Origin: Thelephora terrestris
Lineage: Eukaryota; Basidiomycota; Agaricomycetes; Thelephorales; Thelephoraceae
NCBI GenBank assembly: GCA_015956445.1
Contig: WIUZ02000016.1
Span: 620,001 to 684,000 of the forward strand
DNA: 64,000 nucleotides
Direction of reading: 5' to 3'
Shown here: positions 14,457-53,619 of the stretch, in pieces
Numbering within the stretch: the first letter of the stretch is position 1
How the letters are laid out: every line of letters starts with the position of its first letter
Program-made: the position numbers and the translations under genes
The notes under the pieces: model-generated
Databases searched by the model: none
Told to the model about the DNA's origin: nothing
The model's input: the letters and a program-made list of their open reading frames with translations, nothing else

Positions 14457-17400
14457 CTACAACTTAAGCCGTGGGTACCACTGCCGGCACAGCCAGGTAA
14501 ACACAGACAAGATCCTGACGTCTTCCGTATCTGCCCCGTAGCTGGTCAACCAGACGGCATAGTCGACCTCAGGATTTTGGCCTGGAGAGAAACCGAAGTC
14601 CTTGCGAAGCTGCTCGAAGAGGTGGGGGGTTTGGAAGATGTGCCAAGCAGCCACAACTGCGCTGTCACTGAACTTACAACCTTTGCCATTGGGGTTGCTG
14701 TGGTAGCCAGCAACGGCGTTTGGTAAGCTACAGAAGTGGCACCTACTTACACCTGTTGGCCAAGTAAAGTTCCTCTTCTTCCAATCGATCCAACGCATCC
14801 CGCTGGCAGAACTGTTGCATTTGAATGGCAGGTGGGGCTTCTTCGAGCATGTGGTTTTGCTGCTGAGTCCACATTCGGAGTGGCAAGGATCGTGACTAGT
14901 CGAACTGATCCTACAGGCAAAACATCCCCCCATTTTCTCCAGGAGACCCATGGCTGAACGGGCATGTCTCACTCTTGCATCTGTTTTTTGCTGGGCGGTC
15001 AGAGCCCCCAGTCGAGTGATTGCAGCAGTTGAGGGGAGAGGCCGTGAGGCTATGGGAAGGGGTAGTGGGGTAGTAGGGAGGGGGTGTGTATCCGACCTGT
15101 GGCTCTGTTCAGTTGGAGTGGAAGGGGGCGTACTAAGTAGGTCGAGAGTAGGTACTATGGTCAATGGGGAGGTGGCTTGTGAAACGAGCGGGTGCAGACG
15201 GCCTTCGCAAAAGTCACATAGAAGGGAGTTCGGAACAAGGGAACAAGGGAGGTCTTCACCATCCATGGTTTTGGAGATTCCTCGTCGCCGACATGATGGA
15301 GTGATGAGAATTTTCTCCATCTCCTCCCGGAAGCAATACGGACTTTCGTTGGGGAGGGGTGTAGGAATGTCGTTGAAAAGCACTGCAACGAGAGATTCTT
15401 GACCACCCCTGCCCCCTCGCCCGGCTCCTTGAATGAAGTCGTACAGGCCAAAGGGACACCCTAGGAAGATGACGGCATTGACTTGGGGGTAATCGACGCC
15501 GTGGAGGAGAGCAGTCGTAGAAACCATCCATTTGGAAGGATGGTCCTTTGAAAACCAAGAGTTCAGTTGTTCGTCCTTTTGTTCGCCGGTCATGTTCCCA
15601 TAAAAAGTGCAGACAGGGAACAAACAGGAGTCAGTAAACTCCTGCAAGTCCCTGAGAGATCGAACGAAGAAGATCCCACGAGCCCCTGGATCCTCCTTCC
15701 ACTCCTCTAGCAGGAGGGTGGCCAGTTGAGCACCGGAAGGGAAGACTGCCTCTGGAGTTGGCAATCCAACGACCTGCAGTCTGTGATTGGGTCGTGCGGT
15801 TGGCAACCTGAGGAGGAGCGTTCTTGGGAGGGGTATTCCGAGGGATTTCAAGAGGACCGGTTCATGACAGGGTGCAAGGGTGGCAGTGAGGAAAACCTTT
15901 TGGCCTGTAACTTCGCGAAGATGGATCATGGACTGCATTTTTGGTCGATAGGTGTCGCATAGGAAAACCGAGTGTGCTTCATCCAAAGTGACCCGCACCA
16001 CCTGTTTGTTCCTGAGAAAACTAGACTAGAGTGAGCTTCTCATGCGAGTAGCATCGAACATAACGTGCTCACTCTTTGGCCTCAGGCTGGTAGACATCGT
16101 CCGTTATCATGATGACCAATTGTACCGTTGTACAGCTGGGTCGGCCATCGAGAGTTCTCTCGTTCCAAAGGAGGAATTTGATCCCGAAAGCATGGGCCTG
16201 CTCAGCGAGCTGGCGACGAAGGGCAGTATAACAGGTGACGACAACAGAGATCCCATTTTCCCCAGCAAGAAGGGGTCCGAAAATAGCGAGGGATTTTCCA
16301 GAACCAGTGGGTAGAACTGCGAGGATGTTCTCAGCTCTATTTTCTAGGATCCCTTGGAGGAGGAGTCTTTGCTTGTCGCTTGTAAAGGTAGACCCAGGCC
16401 GTCCGGTATAGAGGGACAAGACCCGAAGAAGCTCCCCCTCTTTGTCACCCACAGAAGAAGACGGTGTAGATGTGATGAGTTCAGACCCAACGCTTGACTT
16501 GGAGAACATGTTAGAAGGTCTGACAAAGCAGCCAGATCAAGACTTACATCAGGGGGTGTGATTGCGGTTGGGGCCCGATACAGGCCAGGTAGAGATGCCA
16601 GAGAGGCACCTGGCAAATTGGGCACACCGATTGCGGACAAGGCTGCGACTGCCTCGAAAACTGTGTCTCTGATCATCTTTTCGTACTTGACAGAGAATTC
16701 TTCAACAGCAAATGAGAGGCCAGAGGAGATAGCGTGGTGGACCTCGCGCATGATCTCTTTGGAAGAGGGCAGTTGGGGTGGTAGGGAACTAGGGCCTTGC
16801 CAGAATGCCCTTTCAGGTGAGTAGAGGAAGTAGGGTATCGGTCGAACTGGGGAAGGTTCTGGACCAAGGCCAAGGACGGTGTGCAATTTTCTGCACCATT
16901 CGTGGGCAAGACTGTACAACGCAGCCTCCTGGCCAGGTAGATGGTCTATTCGTTGGCCATAGACGCGGTTTGCGACGGCTGAGCTGTGGCCAGCTTGAGA
17001 ATCACCAAACTTTTGAACAGAGGGGTCGATGACAGGAGGAAGGAAGACGTGTTGGATGTTGATTAGAACGTGCCGGAGTTGGGAACCAGTGAGTCGACAC
17101 TTGAAATACTGCTCTGTGAAATTGGAGATGATTCCGGAAAGTCCTCTGGGACCTAATTTCTGCCCCTTCACCACATAGAGAAACTGACAGTAGTTGGCAT
17201 GCTTCTCAGTCCACCCCAAGCTTGCACTTAGGAGGATTTCCACCGGTCGAACCGTGGCGAGATAGTATGTTAGGAGCTCCGCCACCTTCTCAGGGGGGAA
17301 ATGGATGACGGAGGATCTATATCCCTTGAGGGTCGACGACTTTAGATTCCTTCGAAGCAAGAACACTTGGCCATGTGCGATGTAAACATTCCTTTGCGCA

Positions 17401-20231
17401 GACCCATTGCGATAGCGGTCATCCACAACTTCGGTAAGGCGGAGGGGACCAGAGCCTGTGGAGTGAACCAGGAAAGTGATGGCCTCTATAATTGGCTTGA
17501 GGGTGTGGAGGAATTCTTGAGCGGCGCCAGAGTCCACTTCGAAAGTAGGCTTGCCTCCGACAGGGGGGCCTGGTCTTAAAAGAGGTAAATTTGAGGACTT
17601 TGCCATTTCGTAAAGTAGCGGAAGACTTGGTGGCTCTGTCCTGACGTGGTTTATGAAGGAATCCCCGATTTCTTCCGACCGGAAGTCCTCCGATAAACAG
17701 AGAGGTACCTGGACTTCAATCTTCTTACGGCCGGTCAAAGCCAGTAGCTGAGCCCACGTAGCCTCAATCAGTTCGTTGAGACCTGACTGGAGCCTGGATA
17801 AGGATAGATTTCGTCCTCGATACGAAAGAGAGGTGTAATCTGGGTTGTATAGGATGGTGGGATTACCGGGCTCTTTCAGAGCTAAGGTGGAGGCATATTT
17901 CTTTAAGGATATGAGGTCGTCGGAAATTCTGCCTTCTCCGGTCCCCAGGTACTGTTTGCACAGCCTTTCGATGAGGCTAAGACAGGGGAAGCAAGGTTAG
18001 CCAAGTTGAATTCGAATGACAATAGAAGCCTCACGAGACAAAGTTAACGCCGCTGCCCAAATTGTGTAGCGCAGTTTTGAGAACCACAGCTCTTGAGAGG
18101 TAGAGCAGCCTCGATATCGGCTGAGTAACGAGGCCAGCCTTGACGAAAGTTCCTTGTGTTCTGAGGGAGAGCAGAGCCATGTATGAGTGCACGGGACAGG
18201 CCAGGCGTCCCATTACGGTTATGTCAAAGCTTCGCTCTCGGAACAGGACACAAGAGAGAGCCACTTGGAACCTCTGGACATTCTCTTTGGAGGAGCCGGT
18301 CGGGGACATGAGGAACTTCTTATAGTCATCTAATAAGGCACGTTGCTCATCCGTGAATCTGGTGGGGACGGCGTCTGGAGGTAGGTTGAAAACCCTGAGG
18401 CAAAATGCAAGGAGGGATATTGCAGTTCCGCAATAGCGCCGCACACTATCACGTTCTCGCAAGACTTTCCACGGACCCATGTACCTTAACACCAATAGGT
18501 TACCTACGGAAGTGAAAGGTCAGAGAAAACTGCTTACTGGCGGTGGGATTTTAACATGACTGAAACCCGGTGAGAACAGCTCATATGTGCCTCCTCTGCA
18601 TCTGCCCACCAGCTGGGCCCATGGTCTATAAGTTTCATAAGCCAGTCAGGGTCGGAGGTAGGGTTGGGGAAGGAGACCAAAGACTGGAGGTGCGCGATAC
18701 TTGTCTTGTCGGTAAAGTACGGCTGCAGAAGTTGGGGCCATCTTGTAAACCAGTGGATTGATGCACGTTCCTTGTCGTTCTCTGCGGTTGGCATTTCTGG
18801 TTTAGGTAGTTGTCTAAACATATCAATGGCATGGGCGTAGGCAGAGGTGGGCAGAGGATCGGGGTGGGAAAGGGAGGGGTCCACGGAGAAGTAGCGCACT
18901 AGTCCTCCCCGGTTGAAGAGAGTCTGCACGTAGGAAGAGCACAAGGAGGGTGTGGGTTTGCTCTCTTGTGGTTCACGGTGATCAGAGAGATGCCGAGAAA
19001 ATGTGGACTGCGCTCCGAATGCCCGAGAACAGAGGGACCCATCTTCATTCGAAAGGGGGCACAAAAATCCTTCCAGAACCATCAAACCGTCAACAGGCTT
19101 CTGACCAGGGGTCTGAGTATACAGCTCAGTGGCGGAAGTCCGGTAGCCACTGTCCACAAGGGGTTCCACTACTGTGTCTTGTTGACCGGGAGAAAGGACA
19201 GGTCTTCCTGGATGGTAGGTCCTTGAGTGCGAGTTAAGCATGTCCGTAGGAACACCACGGTGGCAGCTGGTGCAAATGAGGATCTTCGCCTCCTCGTTGA
19301 GGCCATAGCCAAAGCTGGAAAGTGGTTGGACGTATCTTAGTTCTAGAAGGTCTGGGTCAGCAGAAGTTTAAAAAAGTAACACATGCAAGCGCTTACTATC
19401 CGTCCCGTACACTGAGCTGGAGTTGTCCACGCGGACATCTTCTGGTTGCAAGGGAGGCTCAGGTGCCTCCAACCCAGACGGTGAGTAATCCTCGGAGGGG
19501 GGTTGGATCCAGGCGGGAAGGTTGAAAGAAGGAGGAACAATCTCATCCTCCTCATCTCCAAAAGCTTCTGACGACGCATCAGAGTGATAGGATTCTTCTT
19601 CCCAGTCCTCATCCTCATCCTCTTCTATCCCTGTATCGGGAGGTCCTCCTTTTTCGCTGACAGAGAGAGGGGGGAAATCGATGGCCATGGCTTGGTTGTT
19701 GTCGTCATCCTCATCCCTGCTGTTGTATTCTTCCCCATCCTCTTCTTCATCGACATCTTCCATATCGATATCTTCGGCAACTGTTGCCAACCCTGAAAAG
19801 GCTGATGTGGTTTGCGAAGACGCCTGGAATGAAGGTCGTCGTGGCAAGGCGGTGACTTTGAGACTGTGGGTTTTTTCACAGTGGGATCTGACCCTGTGGG
19901 GGGTGGCGCCACAAAAGTTAGAGCAGATAGGGCACTGGAACTCCCCTCGACCGTTTTCTCTGTGTAAGAGGGACTTCTTGCCTGTGGGAGGGTGAGTGGT
20001 AGGTCGTTAGGACTTGGATAAGACTGGACGCACCGTCAATAGTGACAAGAACCGGGAAGTGGTGAGCCCGACGGTGATCAGTCAAGGCCTTAGCTGTGGG
20101 AAAGTCTTTGTTGCAAAGAACGCAATGTTTTTTCCCTCCGGCTTAGCAAATTATGGGTCAGCTTAACCGCATAGGTAGTGAACCTCGTCGCTCTACTCAC
20201 AATTTCGGGGAGTTGCAGGAGCTCTGAACAT
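14457..20231 (-). CDS. Zinc finger - OrsD-like - tyrosine-recombinase-like - RecQ-like helicase fusion
   Basis: A single long multi-exon gene of roughly 1,780 codons. It starts MFRAPATPRN and splices to two C2H2 fingers (CVLCNKDFPTAKALTDHRRAH; CPICSNFCG with paired His). An acidic stretch and an OrsD-like region follow (CPLSNEDGSLCSRAF, HLSDHR, YVQTLF). The middle exon, 17,738-16,560, contains TYYLATVRPVEILL, YVVKGQKL, TGSQLRHVLINIQ and QAGHSSAVANRVY, an Arg-Lys-Arg-His-Tyr series spaced like a tyrosine recombinase. The helicase has Walker A LPTGSGKS, LDEAH, FLTATLAP, and QGAGRGGRGG as motif VI. A Cys/His-rich tail ends PRLKL. Introns join in frame throughout, for example 18,487-18,539, so the gene looks intact. 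Related helicases are multi-copy in mushrooms and in subtelomeres of other fungi. The enzyme activity of the recombinase-like part is inference. Confidence 0.88.
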
Positions 20232-21044
20232 TTCGTTGGGACAAAAACAATACGCAGTGGAGCAGATGAAGAGGAGAGGAGAGAGTAAGAGAGTAAGAGA
20301 AATCCAAGCTAGAGAAAGGGGTAGCGTTTAGTCACCTACTTTAAAGCTTCAGGAAGGAGAGGAACACTGACGAGTTGGAAGGCAGTGATGATGGCACCAT
20401 TTAGCATAGGTACCGGACCAGCGGAAGAATTCCAGCGTGTGAACTCCAAACCGGTCCAGAAGACCGTGCGAAGACCGTGGACTCAGCCCAAGGTGGACTT
20501 CATACTGGTTGGATTGGCAAGGCAACCGCCTGGAAAAAAATGCCGCAGAGCATGGGTTGGGGATCTGGGATACACGCGAGGATCGCCTGTCTCGGAAGGA
20601 TCAAGATGACACGGAGGTGGTGGGTTTGGGGTGGAGATCGGGGCTTTAAGTTCACGAGATCCAGGACGTCGCACAACATGAGTTCCCCAAGCGAGGGCCG
20701 AGACCAAAAGGGCGGCACCTAGCAAAGTAAACTTCGCGTAGGTACCCACGCCTCGGTCGAAGGCCGAGAATACGGTGCAGAGTCAACTCGCACGGATTCT
20801 CGTTGGTGGTTGGGGAAGAGCCGCGTCGTCACTATCTGAGCTCCGGGCATGGCGATCAGTGACCGTGATGTGACTGATCTCCAAGGGGCGTCCGATCGGA
20901 ATCCCCTTAGTGTTTTCGACACTTCCACCGCCTCCCCGAGGGTTGACCCTACGGCAGAGTCCCGTCCGCCGAAGTCCATCCTAGCAGTCGGGGGTGTCCC
21001 CCTTAGCGTTGTTCGCCTAATGTCTTCTCGGCACCAATCCCGAC
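20232..21044. other. Upstream region of the helicase gene
   Basis: No gene is supported here. Together with the tandem repeats to its right, it forms the divergent promoter space between the helicase gene and the gene beginning near 22.4 kb. Confidence 0.4.
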
Positions 21045-21478: not shown

Positions 21479-22440
21479 AGATCTGCGGAACATCCCACTT
21501 CCTAACCTTTTCCACAGAGTCCACCTTGTGGGGCCGGGGAACTGTCACTCACCTCTGACAATCGTGGAGTTGTCCGTTGTCTCCTTGAACTCCGTTACCA
21601 CGGGGTTTGTTGTCCACTTCAGGTATCCCCGTCCATTTAACCGCTAAAAATCGACGCCTCTCACTGCCAGATTTCCGTTAACCCCATTTAACTTACCCTC
21701 TCCTTGTTCAACACATTTCATAATTCACCAGGAACTTCTCACCCAACGGCTAACTCTTCCATGTCTCTTGCAGTCCACATGGTCGGTTGGGGTTCTGTTC
21801 CGAGTAGTCAACCGTTTCTACCGGCCTTCTCTTCTCGAATGATCTCCACGTTCTGTTTGGTATCCTTCTGTAATTGGTTCCGATTTGTACATGTTCCGTT
21901 TGCCTGAGTTGGAAAGGTCTTTACGTAGCTCTAGAGTTACCCCTGCCGCATCTACACTCCAGGTGAACTTGGCCTCCAAGTAAGGTTTTCCTAGTCCAGG
22001 ACTTACCGTAGAAAGTGAGTTAAATCTTGAGTGTTGAGCAACCCCATCAATTTGCTCAATCAAATTGTCCAACTCCTGTTGTAGGAACAGTCGTTCGCTT
22101 CACTGAGGGAGTTCGGCAACACCGCTTGTCTGTGGGTTCCGAACGGCTACCTCCACAGAATTGGACACTTGCTCCTACACAACTGCCAGCTGTAATGACA
22201 GCGGCGAAAGGAGTTTGAGTAGCCTATCGGAGTCCTCCTGCTCCTCGCTGTCTTTTCTTTCCTCAGCTACCAGGCCCACGTTCCCCCTGTCACCGCTCAG
22301 AGACCCCGTGTGGGAAGGATCTGCAGAGAACCGGACCTTACCCCTGCTGTGTCAAATTTTCTCGCAGGTCCGTGGGTTCCTGAACAACCCTAGTGTCTCG
22401 ACTCTCAACTGATCGGAACGGTTTACAACTATAAGCTGCG
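21479..22440. other. Upstream region of the 22.4-kb gene
   Basis: Pyrimidine-rich DNA without a recognised domain. Extra 5' exons of the next gene could lie here, since that gene's start is uncertain. Confidence 0.35.
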
Positions 22441-25400
22441 ATGATTGGCATCCCGACCCGCCCTGACCACTCGGATCAGTCTGTGTCATTGTCGGTACGA
22501 CTTAAATACAGCCGCGGGATCAATCTAATCATTTTCGAGCGTAGTTTGAACGGAACCGAGGTTGAAGTCCTTGCCGAAATCAACGGCTCCATTCCCCGGG
22601 TAAATCTTCCATCAGCAAAGCTCCGTGGCAGAAGTTCCGTCCTTCCGTCAATCGAACCAGTTCGCAACGGATCTCCCCAGGGTTTTATTCCAAGTCAAGA
22701 AATCGGACGTTTATGTTTCTCTGCCCGGACTGTTCCCGGCAGAAGTATATCTAACCTGGTTTCCTCTTCAGGTGCCTCCACTATCCCCTTATCCCCCGTT
22801 TTCAAGGTTGGGTTGACCCAGCCTCTGAAGTTCATTCCTCCAAGCCCTCAGCTCTCCCAACTCTGGTTCTGCATGCCTTTAAACCTTGTTCCTGAAGGCC
22901 CCACCTTCTCCGGCGATAATCCGGAGAGGTACTGGCCCTTTGGAGCCAGGAACAGCCCCTTGCTCAACGACCCAGCACGAGGAACCCACGAAAGCCTCCT
23001 CCAACTAATCCGGCGATACGCCCCTCACCTGAAAGCATCCTTCGTCAACAACGAGGCCTGGTGGAGTCGGAACTGGGGAACCCCCCAAGTCCATGTGAGA
23101 ACCCCCAATTGGGAGTACCTTCTTTCGTGCTCACGACCTAGTAGATGTTTAAGCACCTCCTGTTCAAGGGGTTAGAAGACATTATGGTGATCTTTAATCA
23201 CAGCCCCGCAGTTCGCCCAGAAAAAATCATTGCGGACCTTTTAGAGGCCAACCTGGAGGCTGAAGAATGCTGGAAAGACCCGACGAAGCATCTCTCTGTT
23301 CGACAGGCCGAGTGTGAGGCTATTCTGGATCCTGTCATCAAAAGGAACGGCTCCATCAACTATGAGAACTCCAATCCCGTCCCTCTAGACATTGGGCCCA
23401 AGCTCGACCTGATTTTTTCAAAGCATTACAAACCAAACGGCCACCGACTTATTGGGAGGACCGAGGATGAACCTTACCAGGTTCAAGACCTGTATGCGTC
23501 AGAGGTCGGGACGCTTTTGGGTAACATCCGTCAGTCTTACAGGTCCAGAGCCATTACACGGCTGGGAAAGGTGTATGGGAAGTCATCCATACCTCTCCTG
23601 TCTATCAGTTCTGTGTACATCCTGTGGGAGATGTGTCAGCTGCCCTATTACAAGAGCCAGCTAGCCCTAGTAAGCTCAACTCTCCAGCGTGTCAGTCAGC
23701 CTATTGACTCTTTATCCAGCTGTATAGGTGGATAGAACCCTTTTCTGAGTCGTTGGGAAACAGGGGCGTTGGTTGTGACTACAGCTCGTCTATGACGAAC
23801 TTCTTCATTGAGGAGGATGACTGTGAACCAGACGTGTTTGCAAAGGTTCGGTTTTTCCACATTCCCGCTTGGGCAGGTTTTGACTGTCCAAACGCAGTTC
23901 TACATGTTCCTCCTGTCTTGTTCTACGGAGTTTTACCTCCTAGCATTGCTGGATGCCTATGTCGCACCCACTCCCATAACCTCAGAGCTCGTCAGGGAGC
24001 AGCTCCTTTCCAAAGACCATGCCGAGGAAGTCCGAAAAGCCATAGGGGACAGGATCAAGGGGGAGGATTCTTTGGGCCCTTACTCAACTTGGCTCAGATG
24101 CAGTAGCCTGGACTTAGAGACCAACGGCTTACTTCTCTATGACCTCATCAAGGAAGGCGTCGTCCAATCATCTCTCTTTGACCTCACGCTTGGCCCCAGG
24201 GCAAAGTCCTTGCAGCTGGGACATTATTCAGAAGTCCACCGGTTCCGGGAATCGATAGAGGACTTCCTTGGGTCAAGCAGACATTGGTGGGATGGAATCA
24301 ACCCCTCCCAGACTGGCCATCGTCCCTGGGTCTCCACAAGGCTTTGGCGAGACTCCGGTTTCGTAACGATTATGGAGAGCTGGCTAAAAGACAGCCAGGA
24401 GTTGCAGAAGTTTCTCGACGAGTTTGAGAGCAACACTTCGATCGTCAACAATCCCCAGGCAACGAACCGCGTCTTCTCTGAGAAAATTGCATTGGAAGTT
24501 TTGAAGTTTGTAAACGTATATAATTCCACTCCAAGTCCTATATTCGAGGTTGACACTGCTTTTACAGTTCCAATCTGATCTTCTCAGTCAGAAGAGGAGA
24601 GAAAAGTTTGACAGGATGCCTATGTCCTTCATCCAGGAATGCGAGATTCTAGGCCTCTTCCAGACTCGGCTTCCCCGCTTTACCCAGCTATTCTTCCACG
24701 ACTTTGAGGAGCATGAGCTTACGTTGAGTTCGGGCCAATCTCTCACATCCACATCCTCCCAGCGTGCAGCAAGGGCCTACCTCCTGTCCGGGATCCGACT
24801 GGAGTCCAAATGTGGATTGTCCGACGCCTGGTACTCCTATGTAGAAGCCCACTCATTCCTCTTCCAAGAAATTGGAAGGACCCCCTTGAAGAGAAGCCTC
24901 GTCCACCCGTACCCCGTTCTCAGCCCCGAGGATGCAGCCACCGTCTACAAGTCTTTTACCTGGGAGAAACAGCATAAGAGGCCAAAGCCTGCTAGGCTGG
25001 CTCCTCTACCTGCTGGAGCAAGGGTCACTCCTCGACCCTTTGCAGTAAGGTCGGCTCTTCTACCCCCTGCAGTCATTTCCAAGCCGCGTTCGTCCAAAGC
25101 TCAGGAACGAGGTTCAAAGCCAACCTCTCACAAGGAGGGTGACTCGACAGGAAAGGAGGAGCCAGCCACTCGCAAGGAGGGTCGCTCAGCAAGAAAGGAG
25201 CAGCTTTCAGGCGAAGAACCTGCCGTCTATACCTCCAGTGTCAAGGTGAAAAAGGAAGAAGAGGAGATGACGGACCTAGAGTTTGGGTCATGGCCAACAA
25301 ATCCGTCCTTCAACAAAGAACTATTCAGGGCCATAGATGACCTTGAACATGGCCCAGGGGCTGACGAACTTGAGTACGTTCCATCTACGATGCCAGAAGA

Positions 25401-25881
25401 GGAGGAGTTGGTACTCCCATCCCATATGGTCACTGGAACCGTCGACGTTGTGGACCATCCGCTCAAGATGGAGGTATTGACAGAGGGGGTCCCAATGGAA
25501 GGGGTAGAGCTGAGCCAACCGACCGGAGGTCACTCGGTTGACAGTCCTCAGGAACGGGGTGAAGATTGGATGGACCAGGTGGACGTCTGGGATGCAGATG
25601 ACGAAGAGTCCATGGAAGAGATCACGGATCCCTCAGATGAAGCCGATGAAGAGTCAATGGACCAGGTTACGGATCCCTCAGATGGAGATGAAGAAGAGTC
25701 CATCTACTCCCAGGGGGAAATCCACAAGTCGGACGGTGAGTAGATTGAGTTTTGTTCACACATCTCGCACTGATAGACTATTGCAGTATACTCTATGGCA
25801 GGCCACAAGCCTACGAGGGCAGAAAAGGATGAGGCCCTACTTAAACTGAAGGAGGCCCGCCGGGTGAAGTACGGACTGTGA
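22441..25881 (+). CDS. Long uncharacterised gene, acidic repeat tail
   Basis: I do not recognise this protein. Frames connect through at least six short introns: QVH to MFKHLLFKGL across about 23,094-23,142; KSQLAL to LYRWIEPFSESL; a 45-nt intron near 23,835; EVLKF to FQSDLLSQKRR near 24,510-24,567; and SDGE to VYSMAGHKPTRAE near 25,740-25,785, stopping after RVKYGL. The N-terminal two thirds look globular, with many Trp, Leu and Glu residues (SSRHWWDGINPSQTGHRPWV). The C-terminal third is Lys/Pro-rich, then strongly acidic, with imperfect tandem units built on EESMEEITDPSD and EESMDQVTDPSD. The start is unsure: a second frame (VKKSDVYVSLPGLFPAEVYL) near 22,700 also looks protein-like and may be a real exon. 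It is divergent from the helicase gene. Confidence 0.68.
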
Positions 25882-26793: not shown

Positions 26794-29468
26794 TTATGGT
26801 AAGTGGGTGTGAGATAGCCTGTGGGACCGAACAAATTCATTTGCGAGATTGACGACGAGTTCATGGAAAGGGCGACTCCGAGATCGTTCAAACTTGATCT
26901 CGCTCCTCCAATCTTTTCCCTGCATAGCTCTTCCTGTCCCCTCCCTCAACTCGTTCTTCCTCTTCTGGTACCAATGTTCTGCCAGCGGAGCCCACGCACA
27001 GAATTCAAGACCGGAAGTAGACCAGGCAGCAGGTTTCGGCCACCAACTGCTGTGCTTAGGGCGATCCTTTTCGTGCTCTAAAACTCGTGAGTAAAACCAC
27101 TCTGTCACGTTTCAACTGGACTTGCCTGGCCATTTGTACACCCCAACAATCATCTCCTCGTCCTCCAAACAGAGAATGGGGGACCAGTATCGTCGGCCAT
27201 TGATTATGAGGGTTTCACAAGCTCCTTCGTGGAAAGGGTGGACCAAGTCGGACTCTGCGGGTATTGGAAGAACGTCGACAGCAATCCTCCAAAGGATCCC
27301 ACCAGAACACAACGCCGCCACATGAGCATGAGGGTAGAGCTCAAAGAAGTGGGCTACCTCAAGATGGTAGGCCAGGTAGTCTGCGTGAGTCAGGGCTTTA
27401 CCCATCGGGTGGGTCACAGGACCCGGGTTTCGATAGAAGGTCGCTCCTTCCTGGTAGCAGGGGTAGAGGATTTTGAAACGGAGGCCTTTCTGGATGAGAT
27501 TTGAAACGAGTCCTTCAGGTTGGAGGTGCCACTGTTCCCTTTCTATTTGGAGCAGGACCAGGGGGTCCTCGATCAAGAGCTTCCAGGGATAAGCGTCTTT
27601 ATCTCTGACCGTTAACAAGTATGCCTTTCCAACAGGCTGGATGTGAAGGACGGACCCTGACAGCTGCTGAGGGAGCCTGTCTCTGCCAGGATGGGACGGG
27701 TGGAGATCGAAGTCGGCAGTGAGCCCTTTGAGCCCGCCATCGAACAATCTTCGCAAAGTCGTGTCAGGACGTTCTGTGAAAAGGCCAAGTCTTCTAGGAA
27801 AAAATTTGTTGCAGGAGGGATCTTCTTCTCCGGTCAGATGGAGCCCCCAGCTCTTCAAAGCAAAGATGTGGTTATCCAACCAGAGTTCTGCCACGCCTGT
27901 GTCCAGTGAGAACTGAGAGGTCTCAAGCTGATGCAGGAGAGAACCCTCTTGGAAAGTTGGGAGAGGGACATCTACAGCCATCGGATCTTCCTCTATCCAT
28001 TCAAACTCATCCATTTCGTCGCTGGCGAGCTCTTGGTTAAGGTGCATGTTCCGTTCGAAATTGAATTCTTCTGAAGCGTTCCACTGGTTGAGGACGCAGT
28101 CAAACCTGCATGGTTTTTCGGTGAGAAGAAAGTGGAAATGAAACAAAAGTTCTTACCACAGATGACAGCTATCAGTAAGTTCCAGGTCGCGCAGGGCATC
28201 ATGCCTTGTAAGCAGTTCACGAAACCAACCCTCCTTCTGACCATCGTGGACGGTAGTGCTTTCAAACCTATAGTATTTGGCACTCCCAAGGTTTGCAAAG
28301 GACTTTGACGATTGGAGACGGTCCAACATGGCCTGTTTGTGGGGAGAGTTTTCAAGCTCCATAGGTATCTTCTTAACCCGCTCGTTGACATAGTCCATGG
28401 GATGGTCGTAGGTCTGGACCTTCTTGGCAAAAGGTTGGGTGCCATAGATGGGAGGTGGGTCGAGGGGAGGAGGGGTGGTTACCGATGTGGGAAGTGTGGG
28501 GGTTTGTTCTGGGGCCTCTGGTAATGAGGAAGGAATCCAACGTTTGATGTAGTGGCCCTGGTGCAATGAATGGTAGGGGTTTCTGCCGGTACTTGGCCAA
28601 GACACATAGACAGGAACTCCGTAGCGGTACATCGCGTTCACCGCAGGGAAGTCGTACTGTCCGGTACACCGCAAGGCAATACCTGCGAAGTTTCGGCTTG
28701 CATGTATCTCAGAAAGTGTCCTGAAAAGGTGCTTTGCTAAGATATGCGAATTGCGAGCTGTTGAATCGAGTCTTGAATAGACCACAGAGAACAACTGCTC
28801 CAAACTTGGCTCGGGGTTGTTCGGGTTTGTCTCAGTACTCTTGTAAGTACGACTGGCTATGAGGTAGGAGCAGTATCCGAGGAGTCGTTGGAAAGCGTTG
28901 AGGGATTTCGTCATGCACTTCTTTGCAAACTTCAACTGGCTGTGAGTCAACATGTATCCATATTCCGAGGGGCGAAAGGGTTCTCTCTGTTCCAGGGGAC
29001 AGATACGACCAGCACCGATTGCAGAGATGGCCGCGCACAAAACGTATTCGATATTCCCCCACAGAGATATCTGTTCATCATCCAGTTTGTACCCTAACCC
29101 ATTGTGCGTGATGTTGGGGTTGGTCGACATGCCCAAGAACAGGGTGTATTTGAAGGAGATGACGGCAGGAAGGTATGGGTACCATTCGTAGTTGGGCTCT
29201 GACCAGCAAATGGGGTAACCGTGTGGGTTTTTCATAGATCCATAATGAGGGAATGGGTCACGTTTTAGTGGAACTGAAAGTGGATCTGGGAAAAGGTTGG
29301 CATCCCGGTCATCACTGTTCCAGACGGACTTGATAGTTTCGGGATCATGCTTGGGATCTTCAAACGTGGTAAGAAAACTCCCCTGATGCCGGAGAAGCCG
29401 GAGCGTTTCTCCCTGACCCACAGTGAGGATTGGGGCAAAGAGGTGAAGAGCTAAGCACTCACCAGCAT
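26794..29468 (-). CDS. Uncharacterised Agaricomycete family protein, paralogue 1
   Basis: The first coding exon is only ATGCTG (29,468-29,463); an intron (29,413-29,462) leads to GETLRLLRHQGSFLTTFED. Landmarks shared with the gene at 32.1 kb are YPYLPAVISFKYTLF, RNFAGIALRCTGQYDF, YGVPVYVSWPS, a Pro-rich linker, CHLW spliced to RFDCVLNQWNASEEFNF, acidic residues, YPWKLLIEDPLVLLQIE, LVSNLIQKGLRFKIL and FFELYPHAHVAALCSGGILW. The penultimate intron appears to be GC-AG (donor GCAAGT near 27,120), joining YKWP to VLEHEKDRPKHSSWWPK. The end is LANEFVRSHRLSHTHLP. I recall similar proteins, with a W-x(n)-FN-WD-C-EF-like block, as expanded and uncharacterised in mushrooms; that recollection is not proof. 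Function unknown. Confidence 0.82.
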
Positions 29469-29639
29469 GGTATGAAAGTAGAGGGAAGACCACGGGTCAC
29501 AAGGAGAAATCGAAAGTGGGAAGGGGCCAGTCACAAGCCTACAGAAGGTCGTGACCACTTCAGCCTGAGAGTGTATGTTCAAACTTGACTGTGTCCGAAC
29601 GTCCTGGAGGAGTTTGGAGAGGGTGCAGGTGGAATATAG

Positions 29640-32084: not shown

Positions 32085-35000
32085 ATGGCGGTAAGTCGTT
32101 TACGCTGTTAGCCTTCATTTGTCACTCACAATCAGCATCAGCTCCGGATTTTTAAATTTGGCAACGACTTAGTCTCGACACTCGAACAGGATCCTGCCCA
32201 TGACCCTTCTCCCGAAACCATGGGACTTGTTTCCCAATCTAACCCCAGATATGACGTTCTCTGGGATCGCAACCTCACCCTTCCCCTCTCTCGCAATCCC
32301 ATCCCTGGCACCCCTGCAGGAAATCCACGTGGCTTCCCTATACATTATTCTCAGCGGGAAAAGTATTGGTTGCCCTATCTCCCTGCTGTGACTTCGTTGC
32401 ATTATCCGATCTTCAGAAACTTTGAAGCAAAACCGACAGTGTCAGGGGAACTACGCAAATTTTTCATTGACCAAAAAGCCTGCGAGCTTTGGTGGAAGAT
32501 TGAAACTGCCATCCTGACTCTGATAAACCGGTTGAAGGCAGGCGGTTACCCCAGCAAGCACCAGGTACCCTTTTACCCCTCCTCCTACCGATACAAATAC
32601 AATTTCGACAAGAGGAGACCTGCCAAAGACGCATCCGTCGCGGCTGTTCTTTCGTTCCATCATATGCTGGCTTACTGTTCATACCTCATCTCATCCCACA
32701 AATCTATCCCCTTTGGTAACGCCGAGCATGAAGATCTGTTCAAAAATCCACAACATGTTGACCGACTCATAAACCGCCGAGATCCCGATGATTCCACCCC
32801 CGCCTTCCTTACAAAACTACTCGGAGCTACGCTAGGTGAAATCAAACAGGGTCGAAACTTTACTGGTGTGGTTGTCAGGTACACGGAAGATTACGGGTAC
32901 GATGTCCTTGAGCTGATGCAGGACTACGGAGTCCCAGTTTACGTCAGCTGGTCCATACCTTTGGGACTCTCTACCTATTCCAAGTTTCCGATGTTCGCAA
33001 TTCTTAACAAGTGGCACCCCCCAGCCCCTTCCTTGTCAGGGTTGGTCCACCCTCGACGCCCAGCCAGTCTCCCTCCCACTACATCCTCCGATCGCCAGCC
33101 TCCACCTGCATCTCCACCTGCCACCCCGAGTCAGAACATGGATCCCCACCAGTATGTTAGGATGAGGAAAGCAAGGATTGATTCCTTTAAGAACAAACCA
33201 CAGAGCTGGTCAAGTCGGCAGCAGGCAGCACAGACTTTCAGCCAGCCTGGAGGTCAAGGTGCTCTGGTCTTCGAGTTCGAACGCACAGAAACGGTGGATG
33301 AAACCACGAACCAAACCGTCCTCGGTTGGCGAAGGTCGCAGATCACTAGGGGGCAAGTAACGCAACAATGGGAAATATTTGAGCGTCGTCATCTCTGGTG
33401 AGCTGCAGTCTTCTTCATTCCCTTCACTCTCTCATTTGGTACTAGGTTCGACTGTGAGCTCAACGAGTGGAACCATTGTGAGGAGTTCAACTTTGCCAAC
33501 GCCACTTCGAATGCGGTCAGCAATTACTACGACGACTACGAGGAAGACGATGAGGAAGACGATTATGAGTTAGATGGCGAAGGCAACAACCCGTCGTGGG
33601 GAGGGCCTGCACCCGCTCGATGGGTGGAACCTCCAGTTCACGAAGAGGAACAAACGCCTCGCCTTGAAGTTGTCGATAGAACAGCTGCAGTTTCCCCGGT
33701 CAGCGGTTCCCCCGATGAAAACTCCTGGTTCGAACGCGACGATGTCGATGACTACGAATATGAAGATGACGAAATGGATGGCGACTATTATGAGGACGGT
33801 GACGACGTCCCAGATGAAGAAGCTTGGGGGGAGCCAGCTCCCATGGAGTATTTTCTAGTGGATGCCAACACTGGATGCCAGCAACCTCAGGCTGGATTCG
33901 TGGACAGATCGGCAGAAGCCCCTCCCCCCAGCCAATCCCCCCTCAGCGTGAAAGATGTTGATGATGTCATTGGGGACGAGCCAGCTCTTCATCGCCTAGC
34001 CGAACTTGAAGACCGGATAGTCGATAACCCGCCTCATACAGATCCTGACGTTGAAATGGACGACATCCCTATTCCAGGTAGCTCGCTACCAAAACCTCCA
34101 CCTCTGATACCCGTTGAAGATTTTGCCTACAAACGATACGGGCTTCTAGTCTCAGGGGACGTTGTCCCTACCGCGGAAGCACGTTGGCCCCAAAGGCTCG
34201 GCTTGAAAGGGAGAACCTTAACCAGCTACATTCAACTCCACGATTCTTTCCTCCAAGGAGTTTGGCCACCCAAGATTTGCGATCTGTCGCCGGATACCAG
34301 CCACCCTGGATTTTCAACTAGGTTTCGGGGCCCAAGGATTTGGATCAGGCATTCCACCGCAACCACTCTGCAGGGGTATATTATCACCCTCACTCGGCAT
34401 CCTCCCGTTAACTGGAAAATTTTCATCGAAGACCCGCTCACCATCCTTCAGATTGACAGGGAAGGGTGGGATCACGACCCTGACAATTTGGTGGCCAACC
34501 TGGTTAGGAAGGGGTTGCCATTCAAGATCCTCAATCCTGAGAGGCTGGAACCTGGCTCGTTTGTTCCCCACCTCAATAGCTTCCCCGTTCCTCACTTCGA
34601 CAGACAACTCGACCGTGCAGACTACATCAATTATCAAAACGAGGCTCTCAGGTTCTTCCAAGCCTACCCACACGCTTACGCTGCAGCTCTGTCTGCTGGT
34701 GGTGTCCTACGGAGGATCGCCATGGACGTCCTCCCCTCACCCCAAGAGTCTGACATCACTCGTCTCTTCCACCTGGAGGCGTGTTCCGAAGCCGTGGTGA
34801 ACGGAGTCCATTACTGGACCCCTGACCTTACCGACGCTCAGGAGGATGTTGTCATTGGAGTCTCTACGTGTCCCCTCTCCTGTAAGGCACCTTATATTAA
34901 TTCTGCAGAGACATTTTACTTACGAGATACAGCTTTTCGACAAGACGGCCATCTCAGCTGGTGGCCAAGATGTACGAATTGGGACTCCTCAGGCCTTGAC

Positions 35001-35189
35001 CTCGGTGCTTGGTCCCCCACGGATGAATTCTGGTACACGGAAAGGAAAGCTGCCCTGATGGCCTCTACTGCAGGGCCTGTCCGGACCCGGGACTGGAAGA
35101 AACGACTCAAGTATGATCCAGCCAACCTCCCCTTCCTCGTAGCCGCTCGAGCCTTGGCCAGGACATCCGTTGCCACCCTTCGCCCGTAA
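32085..35189 (+). CDS. Uncharacterised Agaricomycete family protein, paralogue 2
   Basis: About 1,003 codons in three exons. The first coding exon is just ATGGCG (32,085-32,090); the 45-nt intron 32,091-32,135 joins it to HQLRIFKFGNDLVSTLEQD, aligning with the same region of paralogue 1. The second intron is 33,398-33,445, inside RRHLWFDCELNEWNHCEEF. Shared blocks include YLPAVTSLHYPIF, YGVPVYVSWSIP, a Pro/Ser-rich linker near residue 290, a long Asp/Glu-rich segment, NWKIFIEDPLTILQID, VRKGLPFKILNPE, FFQAYPHAYAAALSAGGVL and LSWWPRCTNWDSSGLDLGAW. No catalytic motif, signal peptide or membrane segment is apparent; the acidic middle suggests a nuclear protein. It is head-to-head with paralogue 1 and looks intact. 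Confidence 0.88.
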
Positions 35190-44019: not shown

Positions 44020-46610
44020 TTTTTTTTTTTTTTTTTTTTTTTTGGTGCTAGTTTATTGTGTGGAGACACGTGGTGTCTATGTTACACATTACAATCGGCA
44101 AGGTCAGGGGTGGGTGGGGGAGGATATTGGGAGAGGTTTGAATCGGTGCGGCAGGAGACGTGATGGTGGCCCGGTCTCCGCCAGGTTTGTGTACATAACC
44201 CTCTAGCACTTCCCTCCTCTTCGGCCGTTTATCCTTCCTTCCTTTCCTTTACCTTCTTCTCCATCTCGTTCTGGGGGGGAATTTTGAGGGAATAGGTCGA
44301 GCGGACAGACAGGGGGGAGGGGGATAAACCCGGGGTGGATATGGTGTAGCCTAGAGTGTATTAGCGACGGAATGGAGGGGGGTGACTCACCCTTGTGTGT
44401 GCGGCCTCCTTCGCATCGTTAGGCTTTCCTGACATCCATGGCTATCGTTTGGCGAGTGCGGGCTGCTGATAGCGTCTCCCAGCGTTGCTTCATTCTGGTT
44501 CAGTGTTCGATCGAGCGCGTTTCTCTTTCTTCTCTTTCTTCTTTAATACGAGGCCGTCTGCCGGACGTACTTCCCCGAAGGTGGTCCTGAGGCGGTTCGT
44601 GTCGCTGATGAATTGAAGGAGGGGAGGGATGCAAGAGTGATCACTGAACAGGTGGTGTAGGGTGAATTCGTCTCTGCCTATGTTCGCTTGTAGGCGCGCT
44701 CTGGCTCTGGAGTAATGTGGGCAAAAGAAAATGAGGTGTGGGATGGATTCGTGCGTCCCTTGCGGGCAGTGCGGGCAATCGGGCAACTCAGCTCGTTTGA
44801 TCCTAAAAAGGACTTTGTTGACTGGGACATGCGTGGTCCTTAGCTGAGTTAGTAGGCTCGCTTGGTTTCGCTTGAGTTGGGAGATGGTGTGGAGGTAGTC
44901 GTCGGTAGGGAGGGAGTTGTCGATGTCGTTGATGAGTTGGAATCTAGGCGACGCGGCCCACTCCGCGTTCCATCGGGTCTTGAGGTTTTTCTTGAGGACC
45001 TGTCTCGTGGCGGAGATGCTGATCGGTAGGGGTTTGCGTCTTAGGAAAGTTGGGAGTTTCACCGTTTCGCTGTTCTCGCCTTTGGCTGCTGACTTCGCTG
45101 CTGCATCCGCTATCTCGTTACCCTCTATCCCTTCGTGGCCGGGCGTCCAGACAAGGTCAATCTTGCACCATTGTTTCAGCCTCCATTCGTTCCAGCCGTG
45201 GCTTCCGTCCTTCAACTTGGTCCGGCCTTCTCCCATCTTGTATCCGTTGACTTTGATCCCTCGTTTCCGGGCTTGTTGGACCTGGAAGTCTTCGAGTGCG
45301 TCATGGATCCGGTCCAGGATGTGGTGCCCTGGTCTGGATCTCTGTGTGCGGAGGGCCATTAGTACCGCCTGGTTGTCCATGCCGATCGTAACTCGGTTGA
45401 GTCTACAGTTTAGGTCTTTGAGGATCTGAAAAGCAAGGACGACTGCGAGTGCTTCTGCTTCGTAAACAGTGTGTTCAGTGTCTTTACCTAAGTGGTATTT
45501 GAGAGTCTTTGACACTGCACCGTGTCGCATTAGAACCGCTGCCGCCCCTATGTTGTGTTCGAAGCCTGAGCCGTCGGTGTAGATTCTCATGCCGGTCGTT
45601 TGGTTGGCGATCTCTATCGCCTGTTTCCTGTCCTCCTCTATCGTGATGTCGGCTTGAGCTCGGTGATTACGTCGTCTCCTCGAGGTGAGGATTGTTTTGT
45701 AGTTCATCGGCTTCACACCTGTTGTCAGGAAGAGGAGGTGGAGGGGGCTTCTGTGGCGTTTGACTATCCTGTTGACGGCTTTGTGGACTGGCTTGTACAG
45801 GGGGTGGCTGGGTGGGAGTGTGACTAGGCGTGTTGCAGAACGGATTAGACTTTTGAGGAAGAGGAGGTGGGGAGGAGGTAGGGATGCATGGGCATTGAGG
45901 ACGTCACCGGCAGTTGTGCGCATTGCACCTAGGGTCGTAATGACTGCTCGTCTTTGCTCGGAAATGAGCTTCTGCGTGAACTTTACCGCTCCTGTTCTGC
46001 GCTTGCCTGTTGGGGTTGCGTGGGGGATAGTGTACCAGACGTCTGCTGCGTAAGACATCTTTGGTAGCGCAACTGTGGTGTACAGTTTTCTCATTCCCTG
46101 GGCAGATATGCCTGTGGACGTACGCGTGAGCCGTCGAATGAGGTTGACCCAGGCGGCTGCTGCCCTGGCCGCCTTCTCTCTCTGTGCTGTCCATTTGAGT
46201 TTTGGGTCGAAGAGTATACCTAGAAAACGGTAGGTTTGCACCGGAGTGACTGTTGTGAGCTTGTTAGTGTGCGGGCAGGTAAACGTGAGGGGAGTGGGAG
46301 GAAGGGGCTTAGTGGAGAAGTTCATTATAGCGAGCTTGGATAATTCAAATTGGGAGTTGTGGGACTTGGACCAGTCGAAGGCGCCACCCGGTCGCATCAT
46401 CATTTCTGATAGCTTCTTGTGCGTATCGGAGGTGTCTTTGCCTATCGCTAGGAGCGCTACGTCATCCACATAACCGAATTGGAATTCATCACGTGCCGTT
46501 GGTGGGCTGATTTCTAAGAGACCGGCATTGTAGAAGGCATAGTAGATCATCGACAGCGGGCAGCCTTGATTATTGCCGTTGTTGATCAGGATTAAAGGGT
46601 GACTTAGGAC
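44020..46610 (-). mobile_element. 5'-truncated LINE with RT and RNase H, poly(A) tail
   Basis: A 24-bp T run (44,020-44,043) is the poly(A) tail of a minus-strand insertion; it is followed by a 3' untranslated region and the end of ORF2. The 5' end is lost within the reverse transcriptase around 46,600-46,620. Long uninterrupted coding capacity indicates a fairly recent insertion, and 5' truncation is the usual outcome of target-primed reverse transcription. I found no clear target-site duplication by eye. Confidence 0.9.
44490..46606 (-). CDS. LINE ORF2 fragment: reverse transcriptase, RNase H, zinc knuckle
   Basis: The frame is open upstream of the first Met at 46,550, giving PLILINNGNNQGCPLSM (RT block before the active site) and then FGYVDDVALLAIG, the catalytic YVDD. 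Thumb-region blocks include YRFLGILFDPKLKW. RNase H follows with MRIYTDGSGFEHNIGAA (Asp), YEAEALAVVLAFQ (Glu), IGMDNQAVLMAL (Asp) and DLVWTPGHEGIEGNEIAD (His and Asp), so all four acidic residues are present. A CCHC-like knuckle CPHCPQGTHESIPHLIFFC precedes a basic end, SNTEPE. RT plus RNase H with a C-terminal knuckle fits Tad1/I-like fungal LINEs. The endonuclease and N-terminal RT are missing through 5' truncation, so it cannot transpose by itself. Confidence 0.93.
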
Positions 46611-46639
46611 TGTGAGTTAGAACAACAACATTTAATCTC

Positions 46640-47630
46640 CCCCAGGAAGTCTTGAATATCATAGAGGACATCTGTGGGATCAATCCCCACCCACTCTGAA
46701 GAAAATTGGCGGACCGGTTTTTGAGATATTTCCACATCTTTACCAGGAGGAAAAGTGTCCTCTGGGCAAATGTATGAGTGCATTAGAGTCCCATAGTAGG
46801 GTTCCCTAGACTACTATAGGGCCAAGGAGGACCTTCCAGGAGAAATCCAGAATTTTGGAGGTGTCCTGCATGATTTGACTTTGTGCCTCCTGTGTGTTGG
46901 GGAGGAGGTGACCCAAATGGTTCCACAATGCTCTAAAAATCACAGAAGTGGACACATACACCTTGTAGATGCTCATAAGGATGGGGGAGAGGGTTTCAGG
47001 ATTTTTAGGCAAAGGTCTGGACCTCCTGTTTGGACATTTCCATATGCTCACCAGGGGGAACTGGGCAAATGTGTGAGCACATCAGGGTCCAGTATCCACA
47101 TTCCCCAGACTACTATAGCACCAAGGAGGACCTTCCAGGAGAGATCAAGAATTTTGGAGGTGTCCTGCATGATTGGATCCCCTTGTGGGTGTTGGGAGGG
47201 GGTGACCCAAATGGTTCCACAATGCTCTAAAAATCACAGAAGTGAACACATATACCTTGTAGATGCTCATGAGGATGGGAGAGAAGGATTAAAGATTTTT
47301 GGGCAAAGGACTGGCCCTCCTGTTTGGACATTTCCACATGCTCACCAGGGGGAACTGGGCAAATGTATGAGCACATCAAGGTCCCATGTCTGCATTCCCC
47401 AAGCTACTATAGCACCAAGGAGGACCTTCCAGGAGAGATCAAGAATTTTGGAGGTGTCCTGCATGATTGGACCCCCTTGTGGGTGTTGGGAGGGGGTGAC
47501 CCAAATGGTTCCACAATGCTCTAAAAATCACAGAAGTGAACACATATATCTCTTAGATGCTCATAAGCATGGGGGAGAGGGATTCAGGATTTTTGGGCCC
47601 AGACCTTTACCACCAAGATGGGTGCAATGA
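46640..47630 (+). repeat. Satellite array 1, about 294-bp unit
   Basis: Three to four units. The phrase CCCAAATGGTTCCACAATGC recurs near 46,911, 47,205 and 47,500, each followed by CTCTAAAAATCACAGAAGTG. The array's left edge (GGACATCTGTGGGATCAATC, about 46,662) is repeated at the left edge of the second array at about 52,458. A 251-codon open frame (46,875-47,630) is a by-product of the period being a multiple of three. Confidence 0.9.
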
Positions 47631-47929
47631 ATGGTCAGGAGGCATGGGGGTGGATTTGAAATGCTGCAACCAGTGAGCAGGACAGAGAGCACATCTCACA
47701 GTTCCAAGCCCTATGTACAAGGAGCCTGGATAGACTTGAGGTTGTCCCACCCTTGTTGGCTGGGAGAGGAGGGGCCTTGAATGACTGGGCCTTGGCAACT
47801 CTAGGGGGTTGGCTATGAGGCACACTGGTTATCCGCACAGGATAGGATACAACTAGAGAATGCAGAGGCAGAAAGTCAGCAACATGAGGAGTTTAGTGTG
47901 GATATTTTCCCATCCTGCTCTCTTTGAGA

Positions 47930-48080
47930 GGGCGGGTTGAGATGATTCCACAAGGGACTAAAAATCACAGGAGTGCATGTACACACTCAACAGACCTTAC
48001 AAACTGTGGGGACAAAGAATCCAGGGTTTTTGTACAAACATCTGGTCCTCCATCTCCCACCCAGCAAGATGGGAGACTTG
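47930..48080 (+). repeat. Diverged unit of the 294-bp satellite
   Basis: GATTCCACAAGGGACTAAAA, ATCACAGGAGTGCATG and TTCCCACCCAGC-like words follow the same order as in the main array, with many substitutions. It suggests an older, decayed edge of the array. Confidence 0.55.
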
Positions 48081-48179
48081 AAGGTGAGAATGGCAAGACA
48101 GATCACAAGAACCTAGGAGACGAAATACAAGATAATAAGGGGACCACAGGGAAACTCTAACGGTACTGCTAGGCTTCAA

Positions 48180-48830
48180 GAGAGAAGAAGAAGAAAGAGG
48201 AAAAGGAGAGAGAAGCTGGCTGCTTGATTGGGATAAAGGTATTTAGTATTTAGATATATATAAAAGTAGGAAAGCTCTGAGAAGCCAAGGGATAGAGAAG
48301 AAATGAACAAAGGGAAGCTGATAAAAAAGAGAGGAGGGGAGAGATCACATTAGACAGAAGAGAAAAGTAGGAGCAAGACGTGTGGCTGAGAAATAAACCA
48401 AAAGTATTAGTAGCTAGAGAGCATAAATGGTGCAGAGAGGAGGTGCGAAAATGTTGGGGAATGCACAAAGGTGATGGGAAATAAAACCACCACTAAGGGA
48501 GAATGTGAGTTGCAGATATTGACTGTGGGTCTAGAGTTGCAGGTCAGGAACACAGATCACAGGTGGGAGATGATGAATGCAGGTCCAGGGGGTTAAAGAT
48601 GAAACTGAAATACTACAAAGAGAGTAGAACAAAGAAACAATAATAGTCAGACAGATGGAAGGGATATAGAAGTGTGAGAAGGCAGAAAAAAGGTGGGGCC
48701 AGTTCATAAAGAGACAAACAAAGAGAAAGAAAGGCTGTGCCTAGTCAGGATGGTGGACAGGTCTTGGTGACATTTTGTAAGCCTCCTGTGGCAGCTGTTG
48801 AGGGTGAGATAAGGTAGTGTTCAGCCCCAT
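48180..48830. other. Purine-rich interval
   Basis: A long A/G-rich stretch (many AGAAGAAGAAAG and GAGAGG words) with no gene. No stable repeat unit is visible. Confidence 0.5.
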
Positions 48831-48849
48831 CTTTGAATAGATGCATGAC

Positions 48850-49429
48850 AATGTATGGGACATACTACATCCAGGGACCAGCTGTGTCTGCAATTCAATT
48901 GGTGAATATAGGGAGAAAAATACATCATACCGATGCCAAGCTGTGTCTGCAACTCAGTCAATGGGTATTTAGCTTCTTAGAGTCAATAGTAAAAATCACT
49001 ACATCTCTGAAATTTCAGGAACAGTCCAAGCCAATTGCAGATGCAACTTGGCCTTTGAGACTGAAAAGAAATGTAAATCCTGAACAATGCAGAGGAATTT
49101 GGAAGTAATGTGTGAAAACATAAACAAATTCTCAGCCTCCAGCAACTTGACTTTTGGTAAGATACCACATTCAAGCACATAAATATGAAAAGTGCCAGCT
49201 TCATGGGGTGTTAGACATGCTGGGCTTTCTGTACAGAATCTGGCATAGAAAAGGCGTATGAAATCCACCCTTATGTGCACAGAGACAAAACCAATTGCTT
49301 CAGCAACCTAGTCTTTGGTGAGCACCACCTTCCAGCACAAAAATGTGCAAAGCTCCAGCTTCCTGGGGGCATAGACATGCTGGGCTTTACACAAGGTATG
49401 GCAGGGAAGGGTAGAAAAACACACCACAC
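48850..49429. repeat. Diverged copies of the 215-bp satellite
   Basis: CTGTGTCTGCAA followed by TCAATTGG/TCAGTCAA occurs twice (about 48,880-48,965), and later CCAGCTTCATGGGGTGTTAG / CCAGCTTCCTGGGGGCATAG recur (about 49,195 and 49,357). This looks like a decayed edge of the array to its right. Confidence 0.5.
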
Positions 49430-50195: not shown

Positions 50196-50214
50196 AACAG
50201 AAAAGCACATGTCA

Positions 50215-53610: not shown

Positions 53611-53619
53611 CCACCTACC

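Follow-up and report, generated by a model that had tools for sequence, protein, structure and literature searches.

A candidate tyrosine-recombinase-like domain in an OrsD and RecQ-like helicase gene of Thelephora terrestris

The window analysed here (the whole stretch of 64,000 nucleotides, G000:C8:620,001-684,000) belongs to the genome of the basidiomycete Thelephora terrestris, assembled in 60 contigs with a total of 40.6 Mb, and carries on its minus strand a gene that joins C2H2-like fingers and an OrsD domain to a RecQ-like helicase. The exon layout and gene content of the window have a fungal look. Near-identical copies of this gene lie in subtelomeric blocks, and for this reason it resembles a telomere-linked helicase (TLH). 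Our main reading, to which we give a probability of about 0.7 on the basis of sequence comparisons, is that the gene is TLH-like and that the region between its finger/OrsD part and its helicase is a divergent catalytic domain of the tyrosine recombinase (YR) type. The features of the gene are the following:

20,232-14,460, minus strand: whole gene, with C2H2-like fingers and OrsD, a middle region and a RecQ-like helicase; inferred splice sites
19,368-20,232, minus strand: 5' part, with a putative start ATG at 20,232, C2H2-like finger exons (CPICSNFCGATPHRVRSHCEKTH) and then an acidic stretch; inferred splice sites
18,981-19,298, minus strand: OrsD domain (PF12013, formerly DUF3505), inside the exon 19,367-18,537; hmmscan E 1.8e-7, 32 bits, above the Pfam cut-off
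18,031-18,519, minus strand: exon with no Pfam match; open frame, 62% identical to paralog B
16,548-17,993, minus strand: middle exon, with the YR-like region followed by a C-terminal linker of low conservation; inferred donor GTAAGT at 16,547, first few codons possibly intron
16,839-17,531, minus strand: proposed YR-like catalytic domain, residues 155-385 of the exon product P0001
16,069-16,536, minus strand: helicase N-lobe, DEAD/DEAH, with GSGKS intact; PF00270 E 3.3e-6
14,460-16,025, minus strand: helicase C-lobe, which starts with the DEAH box and bears QGAGRGGR, then a Cys-rich tail; PF00271 E 2.2e-13

The helicase half contains RecQ-like DEAD and Helicase_C domains with intact motifs, as TLHs do, and in a search of Protein Data Bank (PDB) sequences with profile A2 the helicase start of paralog D was matched by RecQ, WRN and BLM structures (best E 3.5e-6). 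Towards the 5' end, a Pfam scan of the finger exon gave no significant finger (the best match was zf-4CXXC_R1, with E 0.051), and the exon at 18,519-18,031 would contain, or come before, a core-binding domain. The order OrsD, YR-like region and helicase is common to four paralogous families of this genome, named A (window), B (contig C6), D (C8:725k) and E (C14).

Invariant residues of the middle exon

These four families were aligned (the broken copy on contig C1 was left out). Across the catalytic stretch, identity to A is 71% for B, 29% for D and 25% for E, and 23 columns are invariant, among them those of the candidate catalytic residues:

17,439-17,441, minus strand: proposed Arg I (GPLRLTE), invariant in 4/4 families
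17,340-17,342, minus strand: proposed catalytic Lys (NLKSS), invariant in 4/4 families
17,247-17,249, minus strand: Arg of RPVE, taken as R1 in the original prediction; invariant, with the wrong spacing for Arg I
17,073-17,075, minus strand: proposed Arg II (SQLRH), invariant in 4/4 families; Ser replaces the His of HxxR
16,986-16,988, minus strand: proposed His III (AGHSS), invariant in 4/4 families
16,959-16,961, minus strand: proposed nucleophile Tyr (ANRVY), invariant in 4/4 families, nine residues past His III

The R-K-R-H-Y order of tyrosine recombinases is present, and all five residues are invariant in the four families. The Arg I box reads GPLRLTE, GPLRLSE, PPSRGTE or GPARGTE depending on the family (its Glu is invariant too), the Lys box NLKSS, HTKTT or YNKTS, the Arg II box LRH or FRD, and the His III box GHSS, GHGS, AHSS or GHSP; in family E, the candidate nucleophile is the second of two adjacent Tyr. 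The R1-K-R2-H-Y spacings are 33-89-29-9 (35-90-31-9 in family E), compared with 28-91-23-9 in Cre and 23-76-22-9 in lambda Int, counted from the residue numbers that we take to be catalytic in these two enzymes (the letters were checked in their sequences). Between A and B, identity is highest in the catalytic part (71%) and lower upstream of it (60%) and in the linker (36%). For the catalytic part, the proportions of nonsynonymous (pN) and synonymous (pS) differences are 0.18 and 0.80, the latter saturated, and the comparison of both families shows this part to be under purifying selection.

The original prediction had described a five-residue recombinase signature in this exon, and the motifs that it quoted (ATVRPVEILL, YVVKGQKL, TGSQLRH, QAGHSS and ANRVY) are all present where it placed them. 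Its candidates Arg 17,075, His 16,988 and Tyr 16,961 are invariant in the four paralogous families, the His-to-Tyr distance is indeed nine residues, and the Ser that it noticed in place of the HxxR His is found in the window copy, this His being absent from all four families. Its R1 and K were mis-assigned: the Arg of RPVE is invariant but lies 58 residues before Arg II, versus 119 in Cre and 99 in lambda Int, and the Lys of VVKGQ is not conserved (K, K, H and V in the four families). Spacing and conservation rule out these two residues as the catalytic R1 and K, for which Arg 17,441 and Lys 17,342 appear to be better candidates. The conservation of the signature proposed at that time is borne out among the paralogs of this genome for Arg and Tyr, neither of which is lost, and not for its Lys, which varies.

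The four families have Ser, Ser, Asn and Ser at the HxxR His position, which counts against a YR, and the R2-to-H stretch is six residues longer than that of Cre. Both features, together with the fact that no site-specific product was seen, would suit a sub-case of the main reading in which the YR fold was kept and DNA cutting was lost, the domain being a DNA-binding relic within a TLH. This sub-case seems rather unlikely, because the other five residues, including the Tyr, are invariant down to 25% identity and a pure DNA binder would not need them, and because substitutions of the HxxR His occur in active YR relatives, such as the telomere resolvases and topoisomerase IB. That the divergent YR domain still cuts and rejoins DNA is possible, with somewhat less than even odds.

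Comparison with known tyrosine recombinases

Phage integrases from 13 loci yielded 12 proteins (one unannotated record was left untranslated), 11 of which were used in profiles, since the protein of Streptococcus phage phiST1 ends short of the second catalytic box; a further 160 sequences closely related to lambda Int and Cre were not used. A larger YR set started from 110 loci and 102 frames with a YR domain, which were thinned and completed with the former 11 to give 93 domains. A loose R-K-R-H-Y pattern, which appeared in 71-132 of 20,000 residue shuffles per sequence, is weak on its own because only 3/12 phage integrases fit it. Having the five residues in register in a MAFFT alignment is a stronger test than this pattern alone: when A, B, D and E were aligned with the 11 integrases, 5/5 residues fell in the register of lambda Int in both local and global modes, and shuffling the family in blocks of 12 columns placed five in register in 4/2000 cases and four in 30/2000 (an earlier control run gave five in register in 0/100 block shuffles and 0/60 column shuffles).

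Profile comparisons with hhalign placed R2, H and Y in register with the 11 integrases, with a score of 20.9 (300 column shuffles had a mean of 12.5, a standard deviation of 2.3 and a maximum of 21.7), and also with the 93 YR domains, with a score of 22.0 (13.6 when reversed) that was matched or exceeded by 1/500 column shuffles (12.7 +/- 2.4). A hidden Markov model (HMM) of the family had as its top non-family match, among 335 open reading frames and the 12 integrases, the XerD-like integrase of Thermus phage G20c (E 6.6e-4, 13-16 bits), in register until the match ends at the LRH box, while the best of 6000 shuffled integrases reached 7.6 bits. Against the 93 YR domains, this HMM gave more than 7 bits only for g20c and its near-twin L220, and 0/5580 shuffled domains scored above 6.8 bits. 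The window domain is like lambda Int, Cre and the G20c integrase in the order, spacing and register of R-K-R-H-Y and in a segment LF..g.plt..lS..l....LRH; it differs from these enzymes in the missing HxxR His, in the R2-H distance, greater than that of Cre, and in escaping detection by PF00589. The invariance of the residues at 25-29% identity, with the right order, spacing and register, is what speaks most for a YR.

Several results weigh against it. In the genafpair mode of MAFFT only 3/5 residues were in register, with R1 and K misplaced, and single family members had only 1-4 of the 5 residues aligned. Block shuffles were also more demanding for hhalign and make the profile comparison borderline: with the 11 integrases, the 99th percentile of 300 such shuffles was 21.1 (maximum 23.6), above the real 20.9, and with the 93 domains 19/500 reached the real score; the hhalign probabilities were 0.8-5%, and a forced global alignment failed, covering 5 columns only. 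Block-permuted family HMMs scored 13 bits on the 12 integrases in 3/300 cases, the HMM match rests on one kind of phage (g20c and L220 are 99% alike), and a reverse search with a phage-integrase HMM listed 0/4 family members. Curated models were silent as well. Pfam gave no recombinase match, PF00589 included, for the exon and its paralogs; NCBIfam gave none for three proteins; and PHROGs gave none, its best family being an 'excisionase' with E 0.35 in one of four members. Among PDB sequences, profile A2 had 47 matches, all at its helicase end and all to helicases or ATPases related to them, and the sole match of profile A4 was one antibody chain (E 0.93), so that neither found a recombinase. 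A search of the whole genome with PF00589 was empty, while the same model matched in 14/14 control genomes. Relatives of the domain were sought by pattern in viral and prokaryote contigs, where none of the 32 and 83 stretches obtained was confirmed. The hhalign block-shuffle control and the silence of the curated models carry the most weight on this side.

The structural comparison suggested in the original prediction, made on a single sequence, was uninformative. Two AlphaFold runs had a predicted local distance difference test (pLDDT) of 36.6 and 34.8, too low to judge the fold. Arg I lies outside a helix in both models, a point against a YR, and a Foldseek search with the first model was meaningless, with no YR among the 50 of 247 rows listed. 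The rows for PhiC31 integrase (E 0.85 and 2.6) correspond to a serine-type enzyme and were dismissed as noise like the others. In both low-confidence models, three strands lie next to each other, followed by helices, and the Lys comes between the second and the third strand; Arg II is in a helix; in the longer one, the His is just ahead of the helix that bears the Tyr. A Lys between strands, a helix with Arg II, the His and a helix with the Tyr is, Arg I apart, the order found in YRs, and the layout of the models can be taken as a hint only that the domain follows it.

An unrelated helical, DNA-binding or protein-binding domain, in which R-K-R-H-Y would be a coincidence among the 23 invariant columns, would account for the silence of all the family libraries tried, for the 19/500 hhalign block shuffles and for AlphaFold models that are not usable, and it would fit the equal conservation of RPVE, for which we know of no role in YRs. 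This explanation is quite unlikely in view of the register test (4/2000), of the g20c match (0/5580 shuffled domains at 7 bits or more) and of the correct order and spacing of the residues.

Subtelomeric copies and possible function

A search of the genome with the middle exon matched 13 stretches. Five contigs carry near-identical DNA (99-100%): C8 (window), C12, C4, C10 and C11. Other repeats break up the copies on C10 and C11, and the one on C4 has no 5' part. Diverged copies are found on C6 (59-62%), C1 (broken and rearranged), C8:725k (28-29%) and C60 (broken). The sequence at C1:1,330,001-1,340,000 is a 92% DNA copy of the C6 paralog with one half inverted with respect to the other, the break falling where the YR-like domain has its Arg I box. 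A search for OrsD gave 12 places, adding C14/C19, C8:950k/C22, C8:887k and C3; 8/12 are no more than 50 kb away from a contig end, versus at most 15% expected (binomial 6e-5, with duplicates that are non-independent). By eye, the short frames behind the OrsD of C8:950k contain no YR motifs, and OrsD proteins in general were discarded as YR carriers.

Contigs C4 and C11 end in TTAGG arrays about 2.5-2.9 kb past the shared block, and at the C12 contig end no telomere array was seen; in these three contigs the gene is oriented away from the contig end. The arrays of C4 and C11 consist of the pentamer TTAGG with some TTAGGG, and such a pentamer is, to our knowledge, unusual for a fungus. The window copy lies 318 kb from its own contig end, which suggests that a subtelomeric block has an internal copy here or that the contig was joined at this point. 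The gene is multicopy and subtelomeric, as TLHs are, though the window copy itself is far from its contig end.

The shared blocks measure about 6 to 17 kb or more, in a comparison whose listing left out blast pieces of 300 bases or less. On one side they end, in window coordinates, at 12,898 (C10), 12,961 (C11), 13,148 (C4) and 14,240 (C12), the first two edges lying in a tandem repeat or right at one; at the opposite side, the C4 copy is truncated at 19,086, the C11 block ends at 23,556, the C10 block extends to at least about 29,455 and the C12 block to 30,775. Such differing edges fit an exchange between subtelomeres and not the transposition of a unit with fixed ends. The original prediction had proposed a self-contained mobile machine composed of a recombinase, C2H2 fingers and a helicase in one gene; the union of a YR-like core with these parts is still the best reading of the middle exon, but its mobile part is unsupported, as each near-identical copy belongs to a larger subtelomeric block and the edges of these blocks change from copy to copy. 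Starship captains (DUF3435) and Cryptons are fungal YR enzymes, and a complete YR transposon of either kind, with its own helicase, would explain the near-identical copies on five contigs. It is nevertheless very improbable, since the edges of the shared blocks are different each time (four contigs versus the window), some copies are cut by other repeats, and neither a terminal repeat nor a target site was seen that the copies have in common. DUF3435 had no match in the genome, although this model matched in no control genome either. The window gene also differs from captains and Cryptons in having a RecQ-like helicase and OrsD, and no element ends were seen.

A TLH-like gene with a divergent YR domain can be compared with the TLHs of Ustilago maydis (UTASa/UTASb), Magnaporthe (TLH1) and Schizosaccharomyces pombe (tlh1/2) and with the repeats of Colletotrichum higginsianum, which are likewise subtelomeric and multicopy and contain RecQ-like DEAD/Helicase_C domains, a likeness drawn from published descriptions. 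OrsD (DUF3505) is present in some of them, as in the window gene: excerpts of the published accounts place an OrsD domain in UTASb of the U. maydis TLH repeats (PMC10532341) and a helicase with DUF3505 in the telomere-linked repeats of C. higginsianum (PMC5576322). No recombinase domain is described in the excerpts of these two papers, and 'tyrosine recombinase' has 0 occurrences in the second paper. RecQ genes occur near some Ganoderma telomeres (PMC10817607, excerpts), and a 2025 Fusarium study (PMC12857005, excerpts) presents TLHs as neighbours of telomeric retrotransposons and contains no word starting with 'recombinase'. In excerpts of two other papers, DUF3505 proteins are merely counted (PMC4469406) and a TLH is merely named in a legend (PMC8381367). 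In agreement with the original prediction, which knew of no such description, no YR in telomere-linked or OrsD helicases was found in the open-licence PubMed Central (PMC) literature searched.

Smuts, fission yeast and mushrooms, distant as they are from one another, all have TLHs close to their chromosome ends, and the role of these genes is unsettled. As a tentative mechanism, which as a whole we hold to be a little less probable than its opposite, the finger/OrsD part would bring the protein to a chromatin partner or to subtelomeric DNA, the YR domain would nick and rejoin DNA via Tyr 16,961 with the assistance of R-K-R-H, and the RecQ-like motor would open or migrate the recombination intermediate, the gene thus promoting subtelomere exchange and the spread of its block to other chromosome ends. 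Of this, the parts of the gene, their conservation and the subtelomeric copies are shown, whereas the fold, the catalysis, the partners and the DNA target are inferred. Neither a recombination site nor a product was seen, a further point against the YR reading. If a YR does precede the helicase, the role of TLHs could be tested as the formation of a Tyr-DNA bond at a subtelomeric sequence, and the gene would be, as far as we know, the first case in eukaryotes of a fusion between a tyrosine recombinase and a RecQ-type helicase. It is decidedly doubtful that fungal OrsD-type TLHs in general are YR-helicase fusions, that is, chromosome-end recombinases akin to telomere resolvases; were it so, a Tyr nucleophile and a built-in RecQ motor would break and rejoin subtelomeric DNA, and chromosome ends would be maintained or spread in this way.

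A second repeat, proximal to the telomere, occupies 46,591-53,615 in the window, is also present on C4, C11 and C10, and has a fixed inner end, ATTAAAGGGTGACTTAGG, at 46,591. This inner end (ATTAAAGGGTGACTTAGGACTGTGAG) abuts different sequences in the window, on C4 and on C11, and does so two bases in on C10; the junctions on C4 and on C11 are both situated in CCAGARCCATYA, and on C4 the end of the repeat cuts the helicase gene. A stretch of 24 bases of the inner end is found at 11 places in the genome. It could be speculated that the fixed end at 46,591 is a site on which the YR-helicase acts. Right beside it, on the minus strand at 44,493-46,616, an open frame that matches RNase H (E 1.7e-8) and, weakly, zf-RVT represents a retrotransposon remnant.

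The helicase gene is adjoined at 22,435-25,740 (plus strand) by multi-exon-looking frames that diverge from it and belong to the shared subtelomeric block. Further on, two long open frames with no significant Pfam match, at 27,115-29,496 (minus strand) and 32,112-35,186 (plus strand), point apart from each other and are apparently related by eye (RFDC-LN-WN--EEFNF), the first of them being in the block shared with C10 and C12.

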